Shown one piece after another: positions 1 through 9,435 of a stretch of 41,453 nt of DNA. The position numbers were made by a program, and so were the translations under genes. The notes beneath the pieces are model-generated. The model saw only the letters and a program-made list of their open reading frames with translations, was not told the origin of the DNA and ran no database searches. Within the stretch, counting starts at the first letter, position 1. Each line of letters starts with the position of its first letter. Source of the stretch: Actinomycetes bacterium (GTDB taxonomy: Bacteria; Actinomycetota; Coriobacteriia; Anaerosomatales; Anaerosomataceae); NCBI GenBank assembly GCA_021373175.1, contig JAJFTE010000105.1, forward strand, positions 1-41,453, read 5' to 3'.

Positions 1-304
1 TGAGATGCTTCGCCGTGCCCTCTATCTGCGACACGAGTTGCTCGACGACACCTTCCTTGCGTGCGCGAAGGCCCGCGACATCCACGCGCGCGACGGTCGC
101 GTTCAGGCCGAAGGTGGCGGCCGCACGGGTATCGGCAACGATGTGCGCCGAGCGTAGGATGGTCTTGGTCGGGATGCAGCCCCGGTTCAGGCACGTCCCG
201 CCAAGACGATCGCGCTCGACAAGAACCACCTCGGCACCGAGCCGTGCCGCTTCGAAAGCCGCCGAGTAGCCCCCGGGTCCCCCGCCCAGAACGATGATCC
301 GCAT
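1..304 (-). CDS. lpdA: Dihydrolipoamide dehydrogenase-like flavoprotein, N-terminal part (3' end outside window)
   Basis: Class I pyridine-nucleotide-disulfide oxidoreductase. The first residues, MRIIVLGGGPGGYSAAFEAA, form the FAD dinucleotide-binding fold, and GGTCLNRGCIPTK at about residues 38-50 carries the CxxxxC redox disulfide typical of dihydrolipoyl dehydrogenases. Only about 101 codons are present because the gene runs off the left edge. The ATG at 304 has a good Shine-Dalgarno (GGGAGGT, 6 nt spacing). The family oxidises lipoyl groups of 2-oxoacid dehydrogenase or glycine-cleavage complexes with NAD+. Related members (mercuric or soluble transhydrogenase-like enzymes) share these motifs, so the exact substrate cannot be decided without the C-terminal half and the neighbours to the left. 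Confidence 0.82.
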   Translation of the reverse strand, partial: MRIIVLGGGPGGYSAAFEAARLGAEVVLVERDRLGGTCLNRGCIPTKTILRSAHIVADTRAAATFGLNATVARVDVAGLRARKEGVVEQLVSQIEGTAKHL

Positions 305-341
305 GTCAGACCTCCCTGGTACGGTGCGTTTGTGTCCAGTC

Positions 342-347
342 ATTGTA
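342..347 (-). promoter_or_regulatory. -10 element for the flavoprotein gene
   Basis: On the minus strand GGTACAATGACT contains TACAAT, 37 nt upstream of the ATG at 304. No convincing -35 box is seen at 16-18 nt, so this is a moderate prediction. Confidence 0.4.
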
Positions 348-547: not shown

Positions 548-1958
548 ATGAAGGGCTCTGAACGTATCGGCTTTGAGCGCGGACCGCGGCTGTTCCTGGC
601 GGCGTGCGCCGCAGTCTTCATCTTCCTCATCGCCTGGACGATGGCGTGCACGGCCGTCTCGAACGGCAGCACAAATGTTCTTGGCATCACGCTTAGCTCG
701 AGCCTCACCTCCCTCCTGATGCGACTCGCGTTCGCGGGACTCTTCCTGAGCGCGGCATGGTACACGCAGCGCAAGCTTGACGCCAATATCCAGACGACTC
801 GCGCCTTGCCCATGAGCGGTACAAGCTTGAGCTCGTCTATGACAACAATCCCGACGCCATACTCGTCATCACGAGCGAATTCACGGTGCAGTACGCGAAT
901 CACAAGGCCGAGGAACTCACCGGCATCGAGACCGCCGGCATCATCGGCCGCCGCTGCCACGAAGCGATCCTCGGAATTGACACCGCGTGCGACGCGTGCC
1001 GGGTGGATACCGTGCTGCGCGCAGGGGAACCCACCATCGCTGTGAAGCACGAGATGACCACCACCGGGCGCGAGCACTGGCTTGAGACGATGTGGTACCC
1101 GGTCTTCGCGGACGGCGGCGCCGTCGAATCCGTGGTGGAGATCTCCAAAGACATCAGCGACGTAAAGAAGGCGGAGTTCGCTATGCGGACCCGGACGACG
1201 TCTGCGGGATGCGCGTGCTTGAGCTCGTCGACGCCGACAGCGCAGATATCGCGACCGAGCGGCTGCGGACGACCATCCGTGACCGTCGCCCCTCGGAGCC
1301 CACAGAAGTGCGCTTCATCCGCAGGAACGGCTCGCGTATCGACCTGCAGATCGCCGCAACGCCGCTCATGTACCACGGACGACCTGCGGTTCAAGCTGTG
1401 GCGCACGACATCACCGAACGCAAGCGCTCCGAGGACACGATCCGCAAGATGGCGTACTACGACATGCTGACCGGGCTTCCCAACCGTGCCTTGTTCGACG
1501 ATCGCCTCGCCGTCGCCATCGGGCACGCCGAACGCGAGGAGACGGGCTTCGCGGTCATGTTCATGGACATGAACGACTTCAAGGCTGTGAACGACACGCT
1601 CGGACATGCCGTCGGCGACGCCTTACTCTCGGAAGTGGCCCATCGGCTGCAAATGGCCGTTCGCCGAAGCGACACTGTCGCCCGTCTCGGCGGCGACGAG
1701 TTCACGGTCCTGCTGCCAAAGGTCAATTCGCGCCAGGCAGCCGCGCTGATCGCACGCAAGATGACGCGAACGATGGAAGAGCCGGTGCCCACGGACGGGG
1801 GCCCTGTCCCGATTGACCTGAGTATCGGAATCGCATTCTACCCGGCCGACGGGCGCTCGTTCAGCGAGCTCATGTACGCTGCCGACATGGCGATGTACGC
1901 CTCAAAAAGCGAGGGAACACCGTTCCGCTTCGCCGATTCGGCCACGACGGTGCCCTAG
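548..1958 (+). pseudogene. Membrane PAS-PAS-GGDEF diguanylate cyclase, interrupted by a frameshift and an internal deletion
   Basis: Three consecutive reading frames together spell one sensor cyclase. Frame 1 starts at ATG 548 and gives about 85 residues with two hydrophobic segments (around residues 15-35 and 55-75). The frame then shifts near 805-812; one added base in cttgccc would give ALAHERYKLEL and restore continuity. The second frame encodes a PAS domain (DNNPDAILVI) with a Cys-containing stretch (C..C near 958-1010). At about 1170-1185 the text jumps from DVKKAE, the end of PAS1, to YADPDDVCG, the middle of a second PAS, so roughly half of PAS2 is missing and the frame changes again. 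The C-terminus is an intact GGDEF domain with the RRSD inhibitory site five residues before GGDEF. This could be a true pseudogene or, for the first break, an assembly error. Confidence 0.7.
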
Positions 1959-2329
1959 GACCGGAGCTCTTCCTCGGTCACGACCTCGGTCTTGATCATT
2001 CGAACAAGCGCGGCAAGCGCCTCGAAGACGTGATCGCGGATATCCCCGCCCACGAGCACGTACATGATGTCATCACCGATAGCGAGCGTTCCCTCGTTGA
2101 CCCAGGCCTTCACGTGGGTGACGCCCTCCATAAGGCGCGCGCTCTCGACCAGCTCGGCCAATCTGTCGCGATCGACGCTCAAGATCATGCCGGTCACCGG
2201 ACGGCCATCGCGCGACGTGCGCCGCACGATACCGTTGTGTGCCAGGAACATGCCGGTACCGGCGATGTCGCCCGACTTGACCTCGGCGAGCCATGCGTCA
2301 AGCGAAGGCCGCACGCGATCCTGATCCAT
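1955..2329 (-). CDS. moaE: MoaE-like molybdopterin synthase large subunit (coriobacterial subtype)
   Basis: A 124-aa protein in which KAWVNEGTLAIGDDIMYVLVGG, then R-x-H-V-F-E-A-L, then a late MIKTEVVTEEEL match the core strands and conserved HR..AFEA...K region of MoaE, the catalytic subunit that adds two sulfurs to cPMP to form molybdopterin. The canonical C-terminal PIWK motif is altered, as in the short MoaE-like proteins of Coriobacteriia. The start at 2329 has a strong GGGAGGTG Shine-Dalgarno, and the stop overlaps the convergent GGDEF stop by 4 nt. No other Moco gene is adjacent, so the assignment rests on sequence pattern only. Confidence 0.68.
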   Translation of the reverse strand: MDQDRVRPSLDAWLAEVKSGDIAGTGMFLAHNGIVRRTSRDGRPVTGMILSVDRDRLAELVESARLMEGVTHVKAWVNEGTLAIGDDIMYVLVGGDIRDHVFEALAALVRMIKTEVVTEEELRS

Positions 2330-2362
2330 ACGACACCTCCCGCGTCCCGGCGACCTGCCGGG

Positions 2363-2368
2363 ATTATA
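2363..2368 (-). promoter_or_regulatory. -10 element (TATAAT) for moaE
   Basis: A perfect TATAAT on the minus strand, 33 nt upstream of the moaE ATG. The -35 region at 17 nt spacing (GTTCAG) is weak. The element sits right after the stop of the metallophosphoesterase gene, so moaE probably has its own transcript. Confidence 0.5.
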
Positions 2369-2395
2369 CTCCGGACGCCGGAATGCTGAACGCGG

Positions 2396-3175
2396 CTAGC
2401 TTGCTCGAAGCGCCCGGCCGAGCGAGTCCGGCAGCCCGACGGCGGACATAGCCGCCACCTCGGCGTCGAGATCGTACGCCACCCGGTGCGTCACCGTCCC
2501 AAGCCACACGCCGGTGGAGCCTATGCAGGAAGCGAACGGGTCACCGATAGCCTCGACCTCGTCGCGGTTGCCAACCACGAGCTCCATCCAACACGCGCGC
2601 GGGTCGCCGTCTTTCGGCTTGCCCACCGAGCCGCTGCTGACGTAGTGGATGCCTGATGGCAACGGCCGGTGGTACGGCACGTGCACGTGTCCCACGCAGA
2701 CCACGTCCGCCGACGCCTCACGTGCGAGGCGTTCCAGCAAGGCGTCTGTCCGGTCCGGCAGCAGATACTCGTTCACGCGGCGGGGACTGCCATGGCACAG
2801 GAGCACGCGCGCGCCCTCGTGCTCCAGCCGGATCTGGGTTGGAAGGCCGGCCAACCACACCGCATCCTCATCGCTCACCGCCGCGACGGTGAAGTCGTAC
2901 GACGCCTGGCCGTCGGCTCTGGCCTGCTCGGTGGCGTAGTAGCATCCGCAGCTGCCCAGACGCCCGCCGATGCCGCGGTCGTAGTTGCCCTGAACGACCG
3001 GGTCACCGCTTGCGCGAACGCGGGCTATGACAGCGGCCGGGGCGGCACCGTAGCCGACCAGGTCGCCCAAACAGTAGCGCTCGGCGACACCCTCGCTGCG
3101 CACGTCGTCGTAGACGGCTTCCAGCGCACCGGCGTTAGCATGGATATCCGAATAAAGCGCGATGTGTCGCGCCAT
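2396..3175 (-). CDS. Calcineurin-like metallophosphoesterase
   Basis: About 259 aa. The N-terminus MARHIALYSDIHANAGALEA carries the D-x-H metal motif. GDLVGYG, GNYD, CHGSP and GHVHVPY follow in the standard order of the MPE fold, giving two-metal coordination. The family includes YfcE/MJ0936-type phosphodiesterases and diadenosine tetraphosphatase-like enzymes; the natural substrate cannot be told from sequence. A longer reading from 3226 exists, but the ATG at 3175 has AGGAGG at 5 nt and begins exactly at the conserved strand, so that start is chosen. It lies downstream of the methionine operon in the same direction, with a TAGAAT -10 element between. Confidence 0.85.
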   Translation of the reverse strand: MARHIALYSDIHANAGALEAVYDDVRSEGVAERYCLGDLVGYGAAPAAVIARVRASGDPVVQGNYDRGIGGRLGSCGCYYATEQARADGQASYDFTVAAVSDEDAVWLAGLPTQIRLEHEGARVLLCHGSPRRVNEYLLPDRTDALLERLAREASADVVCVGHVHVPYHRPLPSGIHYVSSGSVGKPKDGDPRACWMELVVGNRDEVEAIGDPFASCIGSTGVWLGTVTHRVAYDLDAEVAAMSAVGLPDSLGRALRAS

Positions 3176-3224
3176 GAACGCCTCCTGCCGGTCGCCGATC
3201 CTTAGAGCTGGCATGGCTAGAAGC

Positions 3225-3241: not shown

Positions 3242-4114
3242 CTATCCCAACCCGGCGCCTGCGATGATCCGTGGAACCGCCTCATCAAGGCCGAGGGTCA
3301 TCAGATGCACGCCATCAGCGATCTCGCGCGCGGCGCGCACCTGCTCAGTCGCAAGCGCGATGGCTTCCGCGGCGGGATCGCCGGCCCGCTTGATGCGGCT
3401 GCCGATCTTCTCCGGCACCATCAGACCGGCGAGCCGCTCGTTGATGAAGTCAACGGCCCGGGCGCTGCGCAGCACCAGCACGCCGGCGATGATCTTCGCG
3501 CCGAGCGGCCGCAATGCCGTTACCGCACGCTCGAGCTTGCTGACATCGAAGATCGCCTGCGTCTGAAAGAAGCGCGCACCGGCCTCCACCTTGCGGGTTG
3601 CGCGAAGCAGCTGCATGTCCCACGGCTCCGCCTCGGGGAACATGGCCGCGCCGAGAAAGAAGTCCGTCCCCCCTTTGAGCGGGCGTCCGATCATGTCGTG
3701 CCCCGCGTTCATCCCGGCCGCGACGCCGAGCAGCTGCGTCGAGTCCAGGTCGAACACCCCTTTGGTCTGCGGATGGTCGCCGCCGCGGGGGTCGTCGCCG
3801 GTGACCATGAGCACGTTTTCAAGCCCGAGCGTCCATGCGGCGAGAAGGTCGGACTGCAGTGCAAGCCGGTTCCTGTCACGGCACGTCTGCTGGAAGATGG
3901 GTTCGAAGCCCATCTCGAGCGCCACACGCGACGCGGCCAGGCTCGACAGGTGGAGCGAGGCGCCCTGATTGTCGGTGATGTTGATCGCGTGGCAGTGCGG
4001 CCCGATCGTCTCGATCGAGCGCCGCATGGCTGCCAGATCCGTACCGAGCGGGGGCGCGATCTCGCCGGTGATGACGAACTCGCCGCGCTCGAGCGCGTCA
4101 CGAAACCGGCTCAC
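3242..4114 (-). CDS. metF: Methylenetetrahydrofolate reductase, catalytic subunit
   Basis: A 290-aa TIM-barrel MTHFR (FAD flavoprotein) that reduces CH2-THF to CH3-THF. Landmarks are VITGEIAPPLGTD with the catalytic Glu at the first strand, INITDNQGA, QQTCRDRNRLALQ, NVLMVTGDDPR and FFQTQAIFD, all typical of MetF. The GTG at 4114 overlaps the metV stop as GTGA, showing translational coupling; an upstream ATG extension would read back through metV and is rejected. The pairing with MetV is the acetogen-type MetVF complex, in which MetV passes electrons from ferredoxin or another partner instead of MetF using NAD(P)H alone. It is the last gene of the T-box operon and supplies the methyl group for the MetH homologue. 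Confidence 0.93.
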   Translation of the reverse strand: MSRFRDALERGEFVITGEIAPPLGTDLAAMRRSIETIGPHCHAINITDNQGASLHLSSLAASRVALEMGFEPIFQQTCRDRNRLALQSDLLAAWTLGLENVLMVTGDDPRGGDHPQTKGVFDLDSTQLLGVAAGMNAGHDMIGRPLKGGTDFFLGAAMFPEAEPWDMQLLRATRKVEAGARFFQTQAIFDVSKLERAVTALRPLGAKIIAGVLVLRSARAVDFINERLAGLMVPEKIGSRIKRAGDPAAEAIALATEQVRAAREIADGVHLMTLGLDEAVPRIIAGAGLG

Positions 4115-4779
4115 CGGACACCGCCCTTCTTCGACTCGCGGAGGTTGACCGAGCCCGGCTTGAGTTTCTTGGAGTAGTCTTTGGGCGGCAGCACACCCAT
4201 CGGACCGCGGCCCTGCTCGGCAAGCCGTCGCTGGATGCGCACGTGCGTGCACTCACGATTGGTGAGCACCTCGCACATGCCGTTCCACATGCCCCCGCAG
4301 GGACCGTTCAGCAGGCCCTTGGGGCACGTCGTCACCGGACAGATGCCAGCGGTCTTGTCCAGCACGCAGTCGCCGCACATCTGGCAACGCTCCTCGAACA
4401 CTCCGTGTCGAACCACGTTGCCCAGAAAGACCGACTCGAGGCCAGGCAAGACGGGCTTGCTCACGGCGTCGGCCACCGTCTGCACGCCGGCCCCGCATGA
4501 GAGCACGAGCACTGCATCGGCGGCCTGAAGGTCGCCATAGTGCTTGCGCGTCTCAAGCTTGGTGCCGCCCGAATGGCACGTCACCTCGCCCACGGCCCAA
4601 CCAGTCACCGAGAAGCCCGCCTGCTCGAGGGCTGTCTTCGCCTGCAGAACCTCCTTCTCGCCGCCGGTGCCGGCAACCGTCGCGCACTGCCCACAGCCCA
4701 TGATGAAGACCCGCTCGGCACCCACCTCGGCAAGATTGTCTTTGATGCGTCCCCAGTCGCGGGGCCGTGTGATAATCAT
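4111..4779 (-). CDS. metV: MetV, iron-sulfur/zinc-cluster partner of MetF
   Basis: A 222-aa protein of the MTHFR C-terminal domain family. It is Cys-rich: CGQC near residue 29, a central CHSGG, then CQMCGDCVLD, CPVTTCPKG and GPCGGMWNGMCEV, the signature of MetV/RnfC2-associated proteins of acetogens. In MetVF-type reductases this subunit is needed for activity and probably relays electrons. The start is placed at ATG 4779, which has GGAGG 8 nt upstream, rather than the 17-codon longer version. It is translationally coupled to metF downstream and follows the methionine synthase gene by 22 nt. Confidence 0.9.
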   Translation of the reverse strand: MIITRPRDWGRIKDNLAEVGAERVFIMGCGQCATVAGTGGEKEVLQAKTALEQAGFSVTGWAVGEVTCHSGGTKLETRKHYGDLQAADAVLVLSCGAGVQTVADAVSKPVLPGLESVFLGNVVRHGVFEERCQMCGDCVLDKTAGICPVTTCPKGLLNGPCGGMWNGMCEVLTNRECTHVRIQRRLAEQGRGPMGVLPPKDYSKKLKPGSVNLRESKKGGVR

Positions 4780-4801
4780 CGCTCGTTCCTCCGAACGGGT
4801 G

Positions 4802-7216
4802 CTAACCCTGCTGTATCGCCTCTCTGACAACGTTCACACAACCCGGCGCATCCGCCGAGTAACCAGCGCCGATCGACGCCGCATATTCGGCGGTCACGAC
4901 CGCACCGCCGACGAACACCGGAACGCCGGCGGCAACCGTGACCGCCTTGACGGACGCTTCCATCGCAGGAAGCGTGGTCGTCATGAGCGCCGAGAGACAC
5001 ACGGCGTCGGCCGCCCGGGCCGCCTCGGCGAACCGCTCGGCTGGCACGTCGACCCCGAGGTCATTCACGTCGAAGCCTTGGCTTTCGAGCATCGAGATGC
5101 AGATGTCCTTGCCGATGCTGTGGATGTCGCCCTTCACGGTGCCGAACGCCACGCGCGCTGCGGTCGGGCTCGAACCCTCGGGCAGATGCGCTTTCGCGCG
5201 CCCGACGGCGGCTTTCATCGCCTCGGCGGCAGCGATCAACTGCGGCAAGAAGACCTCGCCCCGGCCGTAACCGTCGCCAAGGCGCTGGATGGCCGGCGTG
5301 AGCACGTCGCCGATCACGGCGCCGGGCTCCATGCCGCCTACGATGAGCTCCTCGACCAGCACGGGCGCGCCATCCGCATCGCCATGCGAGATCGCACGTG
5401 CAAGGCGCTCCCTGACCGTCGCGGCGGCGTCGAGGAACGCGGTCGCGTCAGTCGCCCGCGAGGCCGTGACACCGGCGACGGGAGCGCAGGCCGCGGCGCG
5501 CGCGATCCAGCGCTCGGCCTGCGGGTCGCGCCCCAGGAGCACACCAGTTGCAGCCACGGCGCGCATCGCCTCGGCATCCGAGGGGTTCACGATCGCCGCG
5601 TCGATGCCGGCGCCGACCGCCATCGCAAGGTAGGCGGCATTAAGCGCGGGGCGCGCCGGAAGCCCATGGCTCACGTTGCTCACGCCAAGCACCGTCGCCA
5701 GTCCGCGACCCGCCGAGACCTCGCGCACCGCTGCAAGCGTCGTGGCGGCCGCATGCGGATCCGAAGCCGCGGTGAGCACCAGACAATCCACGACGAGGTC
5801 GCTGTCCGAGAGACCTTCAGCGTGAGCCCGCTCGCGCACGCGGTCCACGATCGCGAGCCGGCCCTCGACGCTCGGCGGGATGCCGTCATCGTCAAGCGCC
5901 AGCACCACCACGGCCGCGCCATAACGCGCGACGAGCGGAAGGATGGCCGCGAGCGATTCCTCGCCGCCGTTCACCGAGTTCACAAGCGCGCGCCCCGGGT
6001 ACACCTTGAGCGCCGGTTCCAGCGCCGCCGGATCCGTGTTGTCGAGCACCAGCGGCGCTTCGACGAGCCCCACAAGCGCGCTCACAGCGGCCGGGAAGAC
6101 CCGCACGGCGTCCACGCCGGCAGCGCCCACGTTCACGTCTAGCAGATGAGCGCCCGCATCCTGCTGCTCGATGGCGTACTGGCGCACGACCGCCATCGAG
6201 CCCTCGCGCAACGACTGCGCAAGCGCCTTCTTGCCGGTGGGGTTGATTCGCTCACCGATGATCGCCAGCGGGAGCCCCGCGCCCAGACGCGCGATACCGC
6301 GCGGACCGGCCAGCACAACGCCGGCGAGCCCCACTCGGCCCTGGGGCACCCGGCGCTCCTTCGCGAAGTCGCTGATGGCGCCGGTGAACGCCGGTGTCGA
6401 GCCGCAGCACGAGCCCACGACCGAAGCGCCCGCGTCCACGAACCGCGCGGCATACTCGCCGAGCTCATCCGGCGTGCCCGGGAACACCGTCACGCCGTCG
6501 AGGAGCCTCGGCAGGCCCGCGTTCGGCTGCACGATGATCGGCAGCGACGTCGCCGAGGCCATCTGCTCCACCAGCGGCAGCATCTGCTCGGGCCCGAGGC
6601 CGCAGTTCATGCCCACCGCCGACGCACCGGCGGCCTGAAGGATGACCGCGGCAGTCACGGGATCGGTGCCGGAAAGCTCCATACGCCCCGAAAGGCCGAA
6701 CGACACCGTCACCATCACGGGCAGCTCGCACGCCTCGCGCGCGGCCAACACGGCGCAGCGTGCCTCGGCGATATCGGTCATCGTCTCGATGAGGATCGCG
6801 TCGGGGCCTGCCGAGGCAAGCGCCGCCACCTGCTCGGCGAAAAAGCCGTACACCTCATCGAAGGTCGCGCTCCCCAGCGGCTCCATCACAAGTCCGGTGG
6901 GCCCCACATCGGCGAGCACGTGTAGCGCGCCGCTGTTGCGTGCGATCCGGACGGCGGCAGCGTTGAACGCTCCCACCATGTCGGCCAGCCCGTACTCGGC
7001 AAGCTTGGGTCGCGTCCCGCCGAATGTGTTGGTGGTGACGCAATCCGCACCGGCGGTGACGTAGTCGCGGTGAATCTGCTCCACCACATCGGGCGCAGTG
7101 AGATTGAGCTGCTCGTTGCACTGCTCGGGAGGGATGCCCGCGCGCTGCAGCATCGTGCCCATCGCGCCGTCGACGACAAGCACCTCTACGCCGAGACGGC
7201 GAGCGATATCAGGCAT
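4802..7216 (-). CDS. metH: Cobalamin-dependent methionine synthase core (Hcy + CH3-THF + B12 domains, no reactivation domain)
   Basis: 804 aa. Residues 1-290 are the homocysteine S-methyltransferase barrel, with zinc Cys in GMNCGLGP (C205) and GSCCGSTP (C270/C271). Residues 320-560 are the pterin-binding barrel (GERINPTGKK, LLDVNVG). Residues 600-680 are the B12 helical cap and 685-804 the Rossmann B12 domain with D697-x-H699-x-x-G702 (KGDIHSIGKD), giving base-off/His-on binding. The C-terminal AdoMet reactivation domain of E. coli MetH is absent, as in many anaerobes, so reductive reactivation needs another protein (for example RamA/ferredoxin-like), not seen here. ATG 7216 is preferred because AGGGAAGG lies 9 nt upstream; ATG 7225 abuts that same sequence. 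Confidence 0.93.
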   Translation of the reverse strand: MPDIARRLGVEVLVVDGAMGTMLQRAGIPPEQCNEQLNLTAPDVVEQIHRDYVTAGADCVTTNTFGGTRPKLAEYGLADMVGAFNAAAVRIARNSGALHVLADVGPTGLVMEPLGSATFDEVYGFFAEQVAALASAGPDAILIETMTDIAEARCAVLAAREACELPVMVTVSFGLSGRMELSGTDPVTAAVILQAAGASAVGMNCGLGPEQMLPLVEQMASATSLPIIVQPNAGLPRLLDGVTVFPGTPDELGEYAARFVDAGASVVGSCCGSTPAFTGAISDFAKERRVPQGRVGLAGVVLAGPRGIARLGAGLPLAIIGERINPTGKKALAQSLREGSMAVVRQYAIEQQDAGAHLLDVNVGAAGVDAVRVFPAAVSALVGLVEAPLVLDNTDPAALEPALKVYPGRALVNSVNGGEESLAAILPLVARYGAAVVVLALDDDGIPPSVEGRLAIVDRVRERAHAEGLSDSDLVVDCLVLTAASDPHAAATTLAAVREVSAGRGLATVLGVSNVSHGLPARPALNAAYLAMAVGAGIDAAIVNPSDAEAMRAVAATGVLLGRDPQAERWIARAAACAPVAGVTASRATDATAFLDAAATVRERLARAISHGDADGAPVLVEELIVGGMEPGAVIGDVLTPAIQRLGDGYGRGEVFLPQLIAAAEAMKAAVGRAKAHLPEGSSPTAARVAFGTVKGDIHSIGKDICISMLESQGFDVNDLGVDVPAERFAEAARAADAVCLSALMTTTLPAMEASVKAVTVAAGVPVFVGGAVVTAEYAASIGAGYSADAPGCVNVVREAIQQG

Positions 7217-7424
7217 CGGCGTCATCCTTCCCTGTCGCCTCGGAAGCGAGGCTCGCGATGTAGCGGCTCACGAACAAGAATCCGGTTGAATACACTATCG
7301 CGAAGAACATGCCCATCTGAAGTGCCGCGCCAGGGCCGAGCGTCGCCCAGAACTCGGCGAGTTCGCCGACCGCCGCACCCCAGACGACAGTCCCGATGAC
7401 ACCGGCCAACGCAAGCCGCGGCAC
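7209..7424 (-). CDS. Small two-helix membrane protein of the methionine operon, unknown function
   Basis: 71 aa starting at GTG 7424 with GAGGAGGA 5 nt upstream. Two hydrophobic segments (about residues 4-24 and 34-58) are followed by a charged, Asp/Lys-rich tail. The stop lies inside the start region of the MetH gene (8-nt overlap with ATG 7216), so it is co-translated. I do not recognise a family. Its fixed place between the DUF39/NIL-ferredoxin pair and MetH suggests a role in sulfide or electron delivery or membrane tethering, but this is only context. No Cys or His that could bind metal or sulfur is present. Confidence 0.72.
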   Translation of the reverse strand: MPRLALAGVIGTVVWGAAVGELAEFWATLGPGAALQMGMFFAIVYSTGFLFVSRYIASLASEATGKDDADA

Positions 7425-7457
7425 GTCTTCCTCCTCATCAACCCGATCGTGAAGCGG

Positions 7458-7865
7458 TCAGAACGAGAGCGTGACGGCCCTCCTCGGACAGGCTACCACG
7501 CACGCTTCGCAGTAGACGCACTTCTCCTTATCGAAGAGCAACGCTCCCGTCTCGGCGTCCATCATGAGCGCGGCGGGCCGGCATACCGCCGTGCACAGGC
7601 CGCAGAGCACGCAGGCGTCCTCGTGAAGCTTGATGTCGGTCGCGGCGGGCTGGACGGTGATGCCCTCGGCCTCGAGGAACGCGACACCGGCGTCGAAGGA
7701 CTCTCTCGGGCCGGTGATCTCCAGCAGCATGCGGCCTTCCTGGCCCGGCTGGATCTGCGCGCGCAAGATGTTCGGCGTGAGATCGTAGTCCTTCACGAGG
7801 TGATACGTGATCGGCTTCGTCGCCCGGTTCGGGGGAAACGTCAGGTCGAATCGTTTGCGGGGCAT
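7458..7865 (-). CDS. NIL-domain / 2[4Fe-4S] ferredoxin of the homocysteine pathway
   Basis: 135 aa. Residues about 15-85 form a NIL domain (ITYHLVKDYDLTPNILRAQI), the ferredoxin-like fold found at the end of MetN and thought to bind methionine or related ligands. The C-terminal third has two clusters, CVLCGLCTAVC and CVYCEACVVACP, for two [4Fe-4S] centres. In methanogens the orthologous pair (DUF39 + NIL-Fer, MA1821/MA1822 type) is required for sulfide-dependent homocysteine synthesis. ATG 7865 follows the DUF39 TAA by one base, and GGAGG 9 nt upstream supports it over the 7-codon longer start. The NIL domain could sense methionine, giving a second control level beside the T-box. Confidence 0.9.
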   Translation of the reverse strand: MPRKRFDLTFPPNRATKPITYHLVKDYDLTPNILRAQIQPGQEGRMLLEITGPRESFDAGVAFLEAEGITVQPAATDIKLHEDACVLCGLCTAVCRPAALMMDAETGALLFDKEKCVYCEACVVACPRRAVTLSF

Positions 7866-7866
7866 C

Positions 7867-9039
7867 TTAGTTCGCCTCCTCGGCACGGATCTCGAGCGGC
7901 TTGGTGGACTGGGAGCCGGGTTGCGGCAAGAGCTGCAGCGGCTGGGTGAGCGTGAAGCCCTGCTCGGTGATCCAGGTCTTGAGCTCGCTTGCGATACGTC
8001 GGGCCTTGCTGAGCGATGAGATCGGACCGGTCTGCACGCGCTTGCCGTCTATCTCGATCTCGCCGCTCCTGAGCTGCGCGTACGTGACGTGGCCGAGCGA
8101 CGGGCGGCTGCGCCGCGCCACGCCGTAGTCGACGATCGTGGCCGTGAGGTCGGCGTCGGTGAGCGCGAGCGTCTCGGCGATGTCCTCGTCGAGCACCGGG
8201 ATCGGCACGCCAATGCCCATGAACGCCGAGGCGCCATACCCCGTGAACGTGGCCGCCGAGAAGAACTCGGGGCTCGCCTGCTTGAGGTCGCCGATGACCG
8301 CGAGCGTGCCGGCCGGCCCCACCGGGACACCGTGCTCGTCGCGGCTCTGGTTCGGGTTGTGCTGCGTGCCTTCCCAGGCGACGTAGCCGGGCGCGCCGGC
8401 GACGAAGATCCTGCTCCCCACACCAATAGTCCGGTATGTCGGATCGTTCAGCAGCGGTGAGAGCGCCCCCGCCGAGCAGAACGTCGCGTTACCCAGGTGC
8501 GGCAAGAGCGTGCCGAGGTACGTATGGATCGTGCGATCGGACGTGTTCACCGCCACGGCGTAGTTCTGATACGCGTTGCGCGGGTTGAAGAAGTACGCCT
8601 GATTGAGGTCGTCAATTGTGACCCAGGTGTCGATCTCCGTACGCGGGTAGCAGTCGGTGCCCGCGCTCCACGCCCGCAGCCGCACGGCCCTACCTCGCAG
8701 CAGGTCCTCGATGACGTGGGCTCCGCCGTACTCGATGCCCTTCGTGCGGCTTGGCTGCGTGACGCCCAGGTACGTGTCCACAGCCGCCAGCCCGCCGTAA
8801 GCGTCGACATCGTTGAGCGTGATCTGGCCCATGCGGATCGGGGGATCAGAATGCCCGAAGTTGAGCACAACACCTGAGGAGCACATCGGACCGAACGTGC
8901 CCGTGGTCACGACGTCCACCTTCCTGGCGGCCGCCTTGAGGCCTTCGTCAGCAGCGAGCGAACCGAACTCCTCGGCCGTCATGACCACCGCCTCACCCGA
9001 TGCGATGCGCGCGTTGATCTCGTCCCATGTCTTTGCCAC
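7867..9039 (-). CDS. DUF39-family homocysteine biosynthesis protein
   Basis: 390 aa from GTG 9039 (VAKTWDEINARIASGEAVVM), with GGAGG 8 nt upstream; the longer reading would translate the T-box leader. The family (COG1900) builds homocysteine from aspartate semialdehyde and a sulfur donor, bypassing O-acyl-homoserine. Two conserved Cys are in place: C53 in TGTFGPMCSSG and C130 in SAGTDCYPR, which match by position the pair reported (from memory) as essential in the Methanosarcina enzyme. Other landmarks are GGLAAVDTYLG and FVAGAPGYVAWEGTQHNP. It is the first gene of the operon, directly after the leader terminator, and is followed by its NIL-ferredoxin partner. Confidence 0.92.
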   Translation of the reverse strand: MAKTWDEINARIASGEAVVMTAEEFGSLAADEGLKAAARKVDVVTTGTFGPMCSSGVVLNFGHSDPPIRMGQITLNDVDAYGGLAAVDTYLGVTQPSRTKGIEYGGAHVIEDLLRGRAVRLRAWSAGTDCYPRTEIDTWVTIDDLNQAYFFNPRNAYQNYAVAVNTSDRTIHTYLGTLLPHLGNATFCSAGALSPLLNDPTYRTIGVGSRIFVAGAPGYVAWEGTQHNPNQSRDEHGVPVGPAGTLAVIGDLKQASPEFFSAATFTGYGASAFMGIGVPIPVLDEDIAETLALTDADLTATIVDYGVARRSRPSLGHVTYAQLRSGEIEIDGKRVQTGPISSLSKARRIASELKTWITEQGFTLTQPLQLLPQPGSQSTKPLEIRAEEAN

Positions 9040-9060
9040 ACCTACCACCTCCAGCAATAA

Positions 9061-9105
9061 CAAAACGCCCCCGCCCCGGACTGTCATGTCAGGGCGAGAG
9101 GCGTC
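9061..9105 (-). terminator. T-box leader terminator hairpin
   Basis: On the minus strand GACGCC..CTCGCCC..TGAC pairs with GTC..GGGGCG..GGGGCG, followed by TTTTGTT. It lies just after the T-box antiterminator and 22 nt before the DUF39 start, which is the expected place for transcription attenuation. Confidence 0.8.
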
Positions 9106-9400
9106 GTATGCCTTCGCGGTACCACCCGACTTCGCCGCTTTCGCGGCCTCATCTCGAGCACGGGACCGGTGGTGGTTTCCGCTCGACGGGCAGGAGTGAT
9201 TCGCCGAGGGGGTCCGATGCTCAATCAGCCTACGATAACGGGGGCTTCCGTCCGGCATTACTCCGCGTGTGCGTTTCCTCCGGATGCCTCAGGGGCCATG
9301 TTCCGCGGGTTCTCGGTCGCCGGTTCTCAGCTGTTCTCCGGCTCTCTGCAAGACCTGTCGTCCGCGTACTCATCCCCATCAAGGGCTGTGCTATAGGTTT
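9061..9400 (-). promoter_or_regulatory. Class I T-box riboswitch leader, most likely methionine-specific
   Basis: Read on the minus strand. Stem I opens with GATGGGG then ATGAGTA, and its descending side is CCGCG-GAACATGG-CCCC (9292-9308), so CGCGG and GGGG helices flank a specifier loop containing ATG (9297-9299). AGAGAGCCGG and GCTGAGAACCGGC follow as distal stem I. The hallmark antiterminator T-box GGGTGGTACCGCG is at 9115-9127, and a terminator hairpin ends the leader. The acceptor-pairing bases are UGGU, which demand discriminator A73, as in tRNA-Met. The alternative register CAU (His) would need a C73 partner (UGGG), so Met is favoured. Uncharged tRNA-Met would turn on the homocysteine/methionine operon. 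Confidence 0.88.
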
Positions 9401-9406
9401 CATCGC

Positions 9407-9435
9407 AGTCTAGTGAGCGACGAGGCCGCTGTCAA
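9407..9435 (-). promoter_or_regulatory. Sigma-70 promoter of the T-box methionine operon
   Basis: TTGACA (9430-9435) and TAGACT (9407-9412) on the minus strand are separated by exactly 17 nt. The predicted transcript starts near 9400, some 20 nt before stem I of the T-box. The promoter overlaps the intergenic end of the Nudix gene. Confidence 0.85.

Follow-up and report, generated by a model that had tools for sequence, protein, structure and literature searches.

The window, by which we mean the whole analysed stretch of 41,453 nucleotides, carries on its minus strand a promoter, a structured leader and genes for a DUF39-type protein (HcyBio), a NIL-domain ferredoxin (NIL-Fd), a small membrane protein, a MetH core, MetV and MetF (Table 1). 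The original prediction had described this promoter, leader and six-gene order from the sequence, and all of them were recovered in place by pattern scan, RF00230 and Pfam models. The operon promoter lies directly beyond a NUDIX-like gene situated upstream of it, and HcyBio starts at a GTG (9039) that lies 3' of the leader. The overlaps described between the small gene and metH and, at GTGA, between metV and metF proved real, and the other intergenic gaps within the operon were 1, 33 and 22 nt. Adjacent and overlapping in this way, metV and metF show the layout of a MetVF-type methylenetetrahydrofolate reductase. The MetH protein contained the homocysteine, pterin, B12 cap and B12 domains; it is classified as a core rather than a full-length enzyme because the reactivation domain (PF02965) is absent, as had been claimed. 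Indeed, no PF02965 match above the cut-off occurred in any of the 69 genomes of the order that we surveyed.

Table 1. Features of the methionine locus in the window (positions counted from the first nucleotide of the window).
Feature	Position	Strand	Basis or location
Sigma-70-type promoter, TTGACA-17-TAGACT	9407..9435	minus	pattern scan
T-box leader (stem I, stem II, IIA/B, insert, stem III, antiterminator)	9087..9391	minus	RF00230
Specifier codon AUG (Met) in GAAC-AUG-GCC	9297..9299	minus	leader alignment
Lineage-specific insert helix between IIA/B and stem III	9156..9222	minus	covariation
T-box bulge UGGU, complement of tRNA 3' ACCA	9121..9124	minus	leader alignment
Intrinsic terminator, mutually exclusive with antiterminator	9062..9105	minus	fold and covariation
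DUF39/HcyBio (COG1900 type), predicted homocysteine-forming sulfur incorporation	7867..9039	minus	PF01837, 492 bits
NIL-domain ferredoxin, two 4Fe-4S motifs	7458..7865	minus	PF09383, 59 bits, and Fer4 models
Small membrane protein, 71 aa	7209..7424	minus	between NIL-Fd and metH
MetH core (homocysteine, pterin and B12 domains)	4802..7219	minus	PF02574, PF00809, PF02607, PF02310
MetV (DUF5981), MetF partner	4111..4779	minus	PF12225, 101 bits
MetF, methylenetetrahydrofolate reductase	3242..4114	minus	PF02219, 118 bits
Metallophosphoesterase, possible seventh gene of the transcript	2396..3178	minus	PF12850, 69 bits

First, we analyzed the leader. An Rfam scan of the whole window at gathering thresholds returned no match, and the T-box emerged at a lowered threshold, where the leader aligned to model positions 1-219 of RF00230, its full length, with 72 bits and an E-value of 9.9e-16. 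The default scan missed it because this score falls under the Rfam gathering score of 93; the ileS and ilvD T-boxes of the same genome, both with gene-matching specifiers, also remained below 93 (80 and 91 bits between them). An alignment of 28 leaders from relatives within the order revealed that the AGUA of stem I (S-turn AGUA/GAA) and GGGUGGUACC in the T-box sequence were invariant and that the GAAC-AUG-GCC specifier loop was identical in all 28. Over the 41 pairs of stem I, stem II, IIA/B and the terminator, 98.3% of cells were paired; 11 of these pairs had changed on both sides, whereas shuffles gave 5.5 and slid controls 1-4. The terminator helix was 98.7% paired, with three pairs changed on both sides, and folded at -28.1 kcal/mol (z -4.9), and the antiterminator helices, which share bases with the terminator, were 94-100% paired. 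Judged by its anatomy and covariation, the operon leader is a canonical transcription-terminating class I T-box despite its sub-threshold score.

Second, the specifier pointed to methionine. AUG was present in all 32 genome loci where the specifier was readable, and the register in which it was read was checked on four other T-boxes of the same genome, in front of trpE (UGG), ilvD (CUC), ileS (AUC) and pheS (UUC), each of which matched its own gene. Given the invariant AUG and these matching registers, sensing of tRNA-Met by the leader, which the original prediction had offered as an interpretation, appears well founded. The CAU tRNAs detected in the source genome, the initiator type included, end in ACCA, which fits the UGGU bulge. 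Since any CAU tRNA fits an AUG specifier, and the metICFE leader of Staphylococcus aureus prefers tRNA-fMet (PMC3771891), it is a real though minor possibility that the leader senses the initiator rather than the elongator tRNA and would couple methionine synthesis to translation initiation; however, no feature of the leader points specifically to the initiator.

The locus has two further elements of note. The insert helix of the leader had 10 of its 17 pairs changed on both sides, compared with 4.1 in shuffles, and carries a conserved ACCACC, the complement of GGUGG in the T-box; in the alignment, the leaders of loci L034 and L039 are without it. Relatives of the small membrane protein measure approximately 107-136 aa and are predicted to span the membrane with three helices (for example, L012:1890-2246). 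Compared with these, the copy in the window is missing about 42 residues, in frame, close to the N-terminus, and is therefore a shortened copy of a family of about 110 aa. A model of the three-helix protein reached a pLDDT of 87.5. The distribution of this gene was patchy, with approximately half of the operons of the order carrying one, and Pfam offered no family for it; identities suggested by MFS_1 and DUF models were rejected, their weak scores looking like hydrophobic background. One could imagine that the insert helix is an added regulatory domain that masks GGUGG until uncharged tRNA-Met arrives, and that the three-helix protein is a new DUF39/MetH accessory acting, for instance, in membrane docking or electron delivery to ferredoxin steps, but we consider this joint proposal quite doubtful.

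Regarding transcription, a scan for one promoter type between positions 2300 and 10000 found a single promoter-like site (9435-9407), compared with 0.4 expected, and this TTGACA promoter was kept ahead of 26 of the 28 aligned leaders. No terminator-like site above chance was observed inside the operon. We infer that the six genes form one transcript from the TTGACA promoter. It is improbable that there are instead two transcripts, one holding only DUF39 and NIL-Fd under the T-box and another holding metH and metVF, driven from a promoter of its own ahead of metH. Such a division would suit some relatives, in which gaps of several hundred nucleotides contain nothing but the optional small gene, and locus L031, in which metVF is not beside metH; in the window, however, neighbouring genes overlap or lie within 33 nt of each other, and the scan for the one promoter type found no promoter-like site in the gaps. 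The single transcript may on the contrary be longer than first drawn. The metallophosphoesterase gene follows metF on the same strand after about 63 nt, and since no terminator-like site was found in this gap, transcription may continue beyond 3242 into it; the gene also lies directly 3' of metF in 8 of 24 relatives, which again suggests an extended transcript. The metallophosphoesterase gene and a MoaE-like gene (together 1955-3178, minus) stay near metF in many relatives and have no evident role in methionine synthesis.

We then considered how widely this arrangement occurs. Among 298 sampled genomes of the class, DUF39 occurred in 47, all of them within the order of the window (most likely Anaerosomatales, OPB41); the 69 genomes surveyed from this order comprised these 47 and 22 without DUF39. 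DUF39 was preceded by a T-box in 42 of the 45 genomes whose upstream DNA was assessable; G135 and G147, in which only gene fragments were available, were left out of this count. The three without a T-box were G043 (L038), G065 (L115) and G105 (L040). Locus L040 has apparent leader remnants, GATGCCGGACGGATGCCC and GTCGGGCGGG, which look like the outcome of a deletion of the central part. The comparison of gene order proposed with the original prediction was also favorable: among named relatives (Coriobacteriia, Anaerosomatales and Actinobacteria metagenome-assembled genomes, plus EMTCatB1), the order HcyBio-NILFd-MetH-MetV-MetF was conserved in 24 of 25 assessable loci, the sole exception being L031, with metH but without metVF alongside. 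A cultivated relative, Parvivirga hydrogeniphila Es71-Z0120, is able to grow in medium lacking yeast extract (PMC9686372). A Met T-box in front of other genes was also sought in the relatives lacking DUF39 and rejected, because the 13 long T-boxes retrieved from these genomes precede ilvD, trpE or, in G059, another gene; none of the 13 had a readable AUG specifier. On this genomic evidence, pairing of the T-box with the DUF39 operon is the rule within the lineage and not a one-off. The combination had been called unusual, which is an overstatement within the lineage itself.

HcyBio matched the whole PF01837 domain, far above the cut-off of 26.2 bits. Its cysteines C53 and C130 were invariant in 39 homologues and, from their near-equal numbering, probably correspond to the two conserved cysteines of MA1821, Cys54 and Cys131, of which Cys54 is essential (PMC12068725). 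A search of PDB sequences found no relative of DUF39, and none of MetV. The structure model of HcyBio (window 7870-9039) was confident (pLDDT 92), and it had no Foldseek match among solved structures at an E-value of 0.001 or better; a second structure comparison gave Z scores no higher than 3.1, over about 60-75 residues. Thus, no close solved fold was detected for the modelled protein, which does not make the fold new. For the ferredoxin, the NIL domain has been described as methionine-binding (PMC12068725), and by analogy feedback by methionine at the protein level may supplement the RNA switch.

The genomic context of the pathway agreed with the DUF39 route. In Desulfovibrio vulgaris, methionine is made without homoserine as an intermediate, and its synthesis depends genetically on DUF39, NIL-Fd, COG2122 and a reactivase of the DUF4445 type (PMC5764234). 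The source genome encodes COG2122 off the operon, as well as one RamA-like (RACo-like, DUF4445) protein unlinked to it. The claim that the operon encodes a whole sulfide-to-methionine route was therefore overstated. In relatives, COG2122 lies roughly 10-20 kb downstream of DUF39. In the source genome it is on contig C80 (L176, G000:C80), whose end appears to continue the dihydrolipoamide dehydrogenase (lpd) gene that is cut at the left edge of the window (2-343, minus); this join, if right, would put COG2122 about 3 kb outside the window.

An O-acylhomoserine sulfhydrylase that would make the DUF39 pair redundant had been named as evidence that would count against the proposal. Neither this enzyme (as a full-length PF01053 protein) nor MetX was found in the source genome, an absence that is not absolute since the draft is 98.9% complete in 144 contigs; its PF01053 matches were weak and partial (32.5 bits or less), compared with 410-510 bits for the real enzymes in relatives. 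A hidden classical homocysteine route was accordingly rejected. Across the 69 genomes, COG2122 tracked DUF39, being present in 43 of 47 genomes with DUF39 versus 5 of 22 without it (p = 2e-8, kinship ignored). Full-length PF01053 enzymes were rarer with DUF39 (20 of 47 versus 17 of 22, p = 0.01; at completeness of at least 90%, 15 of 37 versus 13 of 15, p = 0.005; kinship ignored in both), and their presence in those 20 relatives indicates that in part of the order another route exists beside the DUF39 operon. By analogy, these co-occurrence patterns match the D. vulgaris genetics. Finally, the acetyl-CoA synthase CdhC was not detected in the source genome, which makes MetVF likelier to supply methyl groups for methionine than to serve acetogenesis, and the latter use was rejected on this ground.

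The components of this system have counterparts elsewhere. In Firmicutes, T-boxes with a Met specifier have been described (PMC2494555, PMC3771891, PMC3766115), and a survey of Actinobacteria in 2005 reported T-boxes only as translational elements at ileS, with no RNA element at methionine operons (PMC1262725). The leader described here shares with the T-boxes of S. aureus metICFE-mdh and of Lactobacillales methionine genes the S-turn motifs, AUG specifier, UGGU, antiterminator/terminator pair and association with methionine genes (PMC3771891, PMC2494555), whereas it differs from them in its actinobacterial host, in the DUF39 route in place of cystathionine or MetE genes, and in the extra conserved helix. 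Similarly, DUF39, NIL-Fd, COG2122, a MetH without reactivation domain accompanied by DUF4445, and the lack of a classical route recall the Desulfovibrio/Methanosarcina pathway (PMC5764234); however, the locus numbers in D. vulgaris Miyazaki are far apart, whereas here DUF39 and NIL-Fd share an operon with MetH-MetVF under a T-box. As in acetogen MetVF, MetV (DUF5981) adjoins MetF, but CdhC was not detected here.

Among 30 DUF39 loci scanned outside the order, none had an adjoining T-box, and 15 had a SAM-I riboswitch just upstream of DUF39 (Firmicutes and Nitrospirae: L045, L050, L058, L059, L061, L064, L067, L071, L075, L078, L079, L081, L086, L087 and L090). These loci share the DUF39-NIL-Fd pair with the window, but no MetV homologue was found nearby. 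Four of them (L071, L079, L081 and L090) also have MetH downstream, so an RNA-switched sulfide-to-methionine operon is not unique to the order. Our searches of the open literature turned up no report of DUF39/COG1900 paired with a T-box, but older T-box surveys may hold an earlier notice. The novelty therefore lies in the Met T-box, in the presence of MetVF genes and in an actinobacterial host, the component parts being already known. That DUF39 makes another thiol, for example of the coenzyme M type, with the MetH genes as mere neighbours, is highly improbable: COG1900 does include MMP16, the Methanosarcina coenzyme M synthase (PMC12068725), and TIGR03287 (methanogenesis marker 16/coenzyme M synthase) matches HcyBio at 129 bits, but this score is far under the cut-off of 364, the gene is joined to those for NIL-Fd, MetH, MetV and MetF in nearly all assessable loci, it follows an AUG T-box in the window and SAM riboswitches at loci of other lineages, and the classical homocysteine route was not seen in the source genome.

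Thus, the locus is very probably a tRNA-Met T-box-controlled methionine biosynthesis operon that uses the DUF39 route in an anaerobic actinobacterium. In the model that we infer, tRNA binding would control termination of a single transcript, and expression and pathway flux would respond to methionine. RNA polymerase would start at the TTGACA promoter and transcribe the class I T-box leader. Under methionine shortage, uncharged tRNA-Met would bind the leader at two sites, the CAU anticodon pairing with the AUG specifier and the 3' ACCA with the UGGU bulge; the antiterminator would then form on the tRNA-bound leader and the six genes would be read, whereas with charged tRNA-Met the terminator would form. 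DUF39 and NIL-Fd, aided by the unlinked COG2122, would convert aspartate semialdehyde and a reduced sulfur donor into homocysteine with no homoserine involved. MetVF would make methyl-tetrahydrofolate, the MetH core would move the methyl group via cobalamin, and the unlinked RamA-like protein would probably reactivate the cobalamin.

In this model, conversion of sulfide to homocysteine by DUF39 would be the methionine route for much of a subsurface anaerobic actinobacterial order, and annotators would need no longer label these bacteria methionine auxotrophs. Our results also extend classical T-boxes at methionine genes into Actinomycetota. Since unrelated RNA sensors, the SAM-I riboswitch and the Met T-box, have been placed ahead of the same enzyme in different lineages, the DUF39 loci may provide a natural test of whether it is better to sense SAM or the charging of tRNA-Met.
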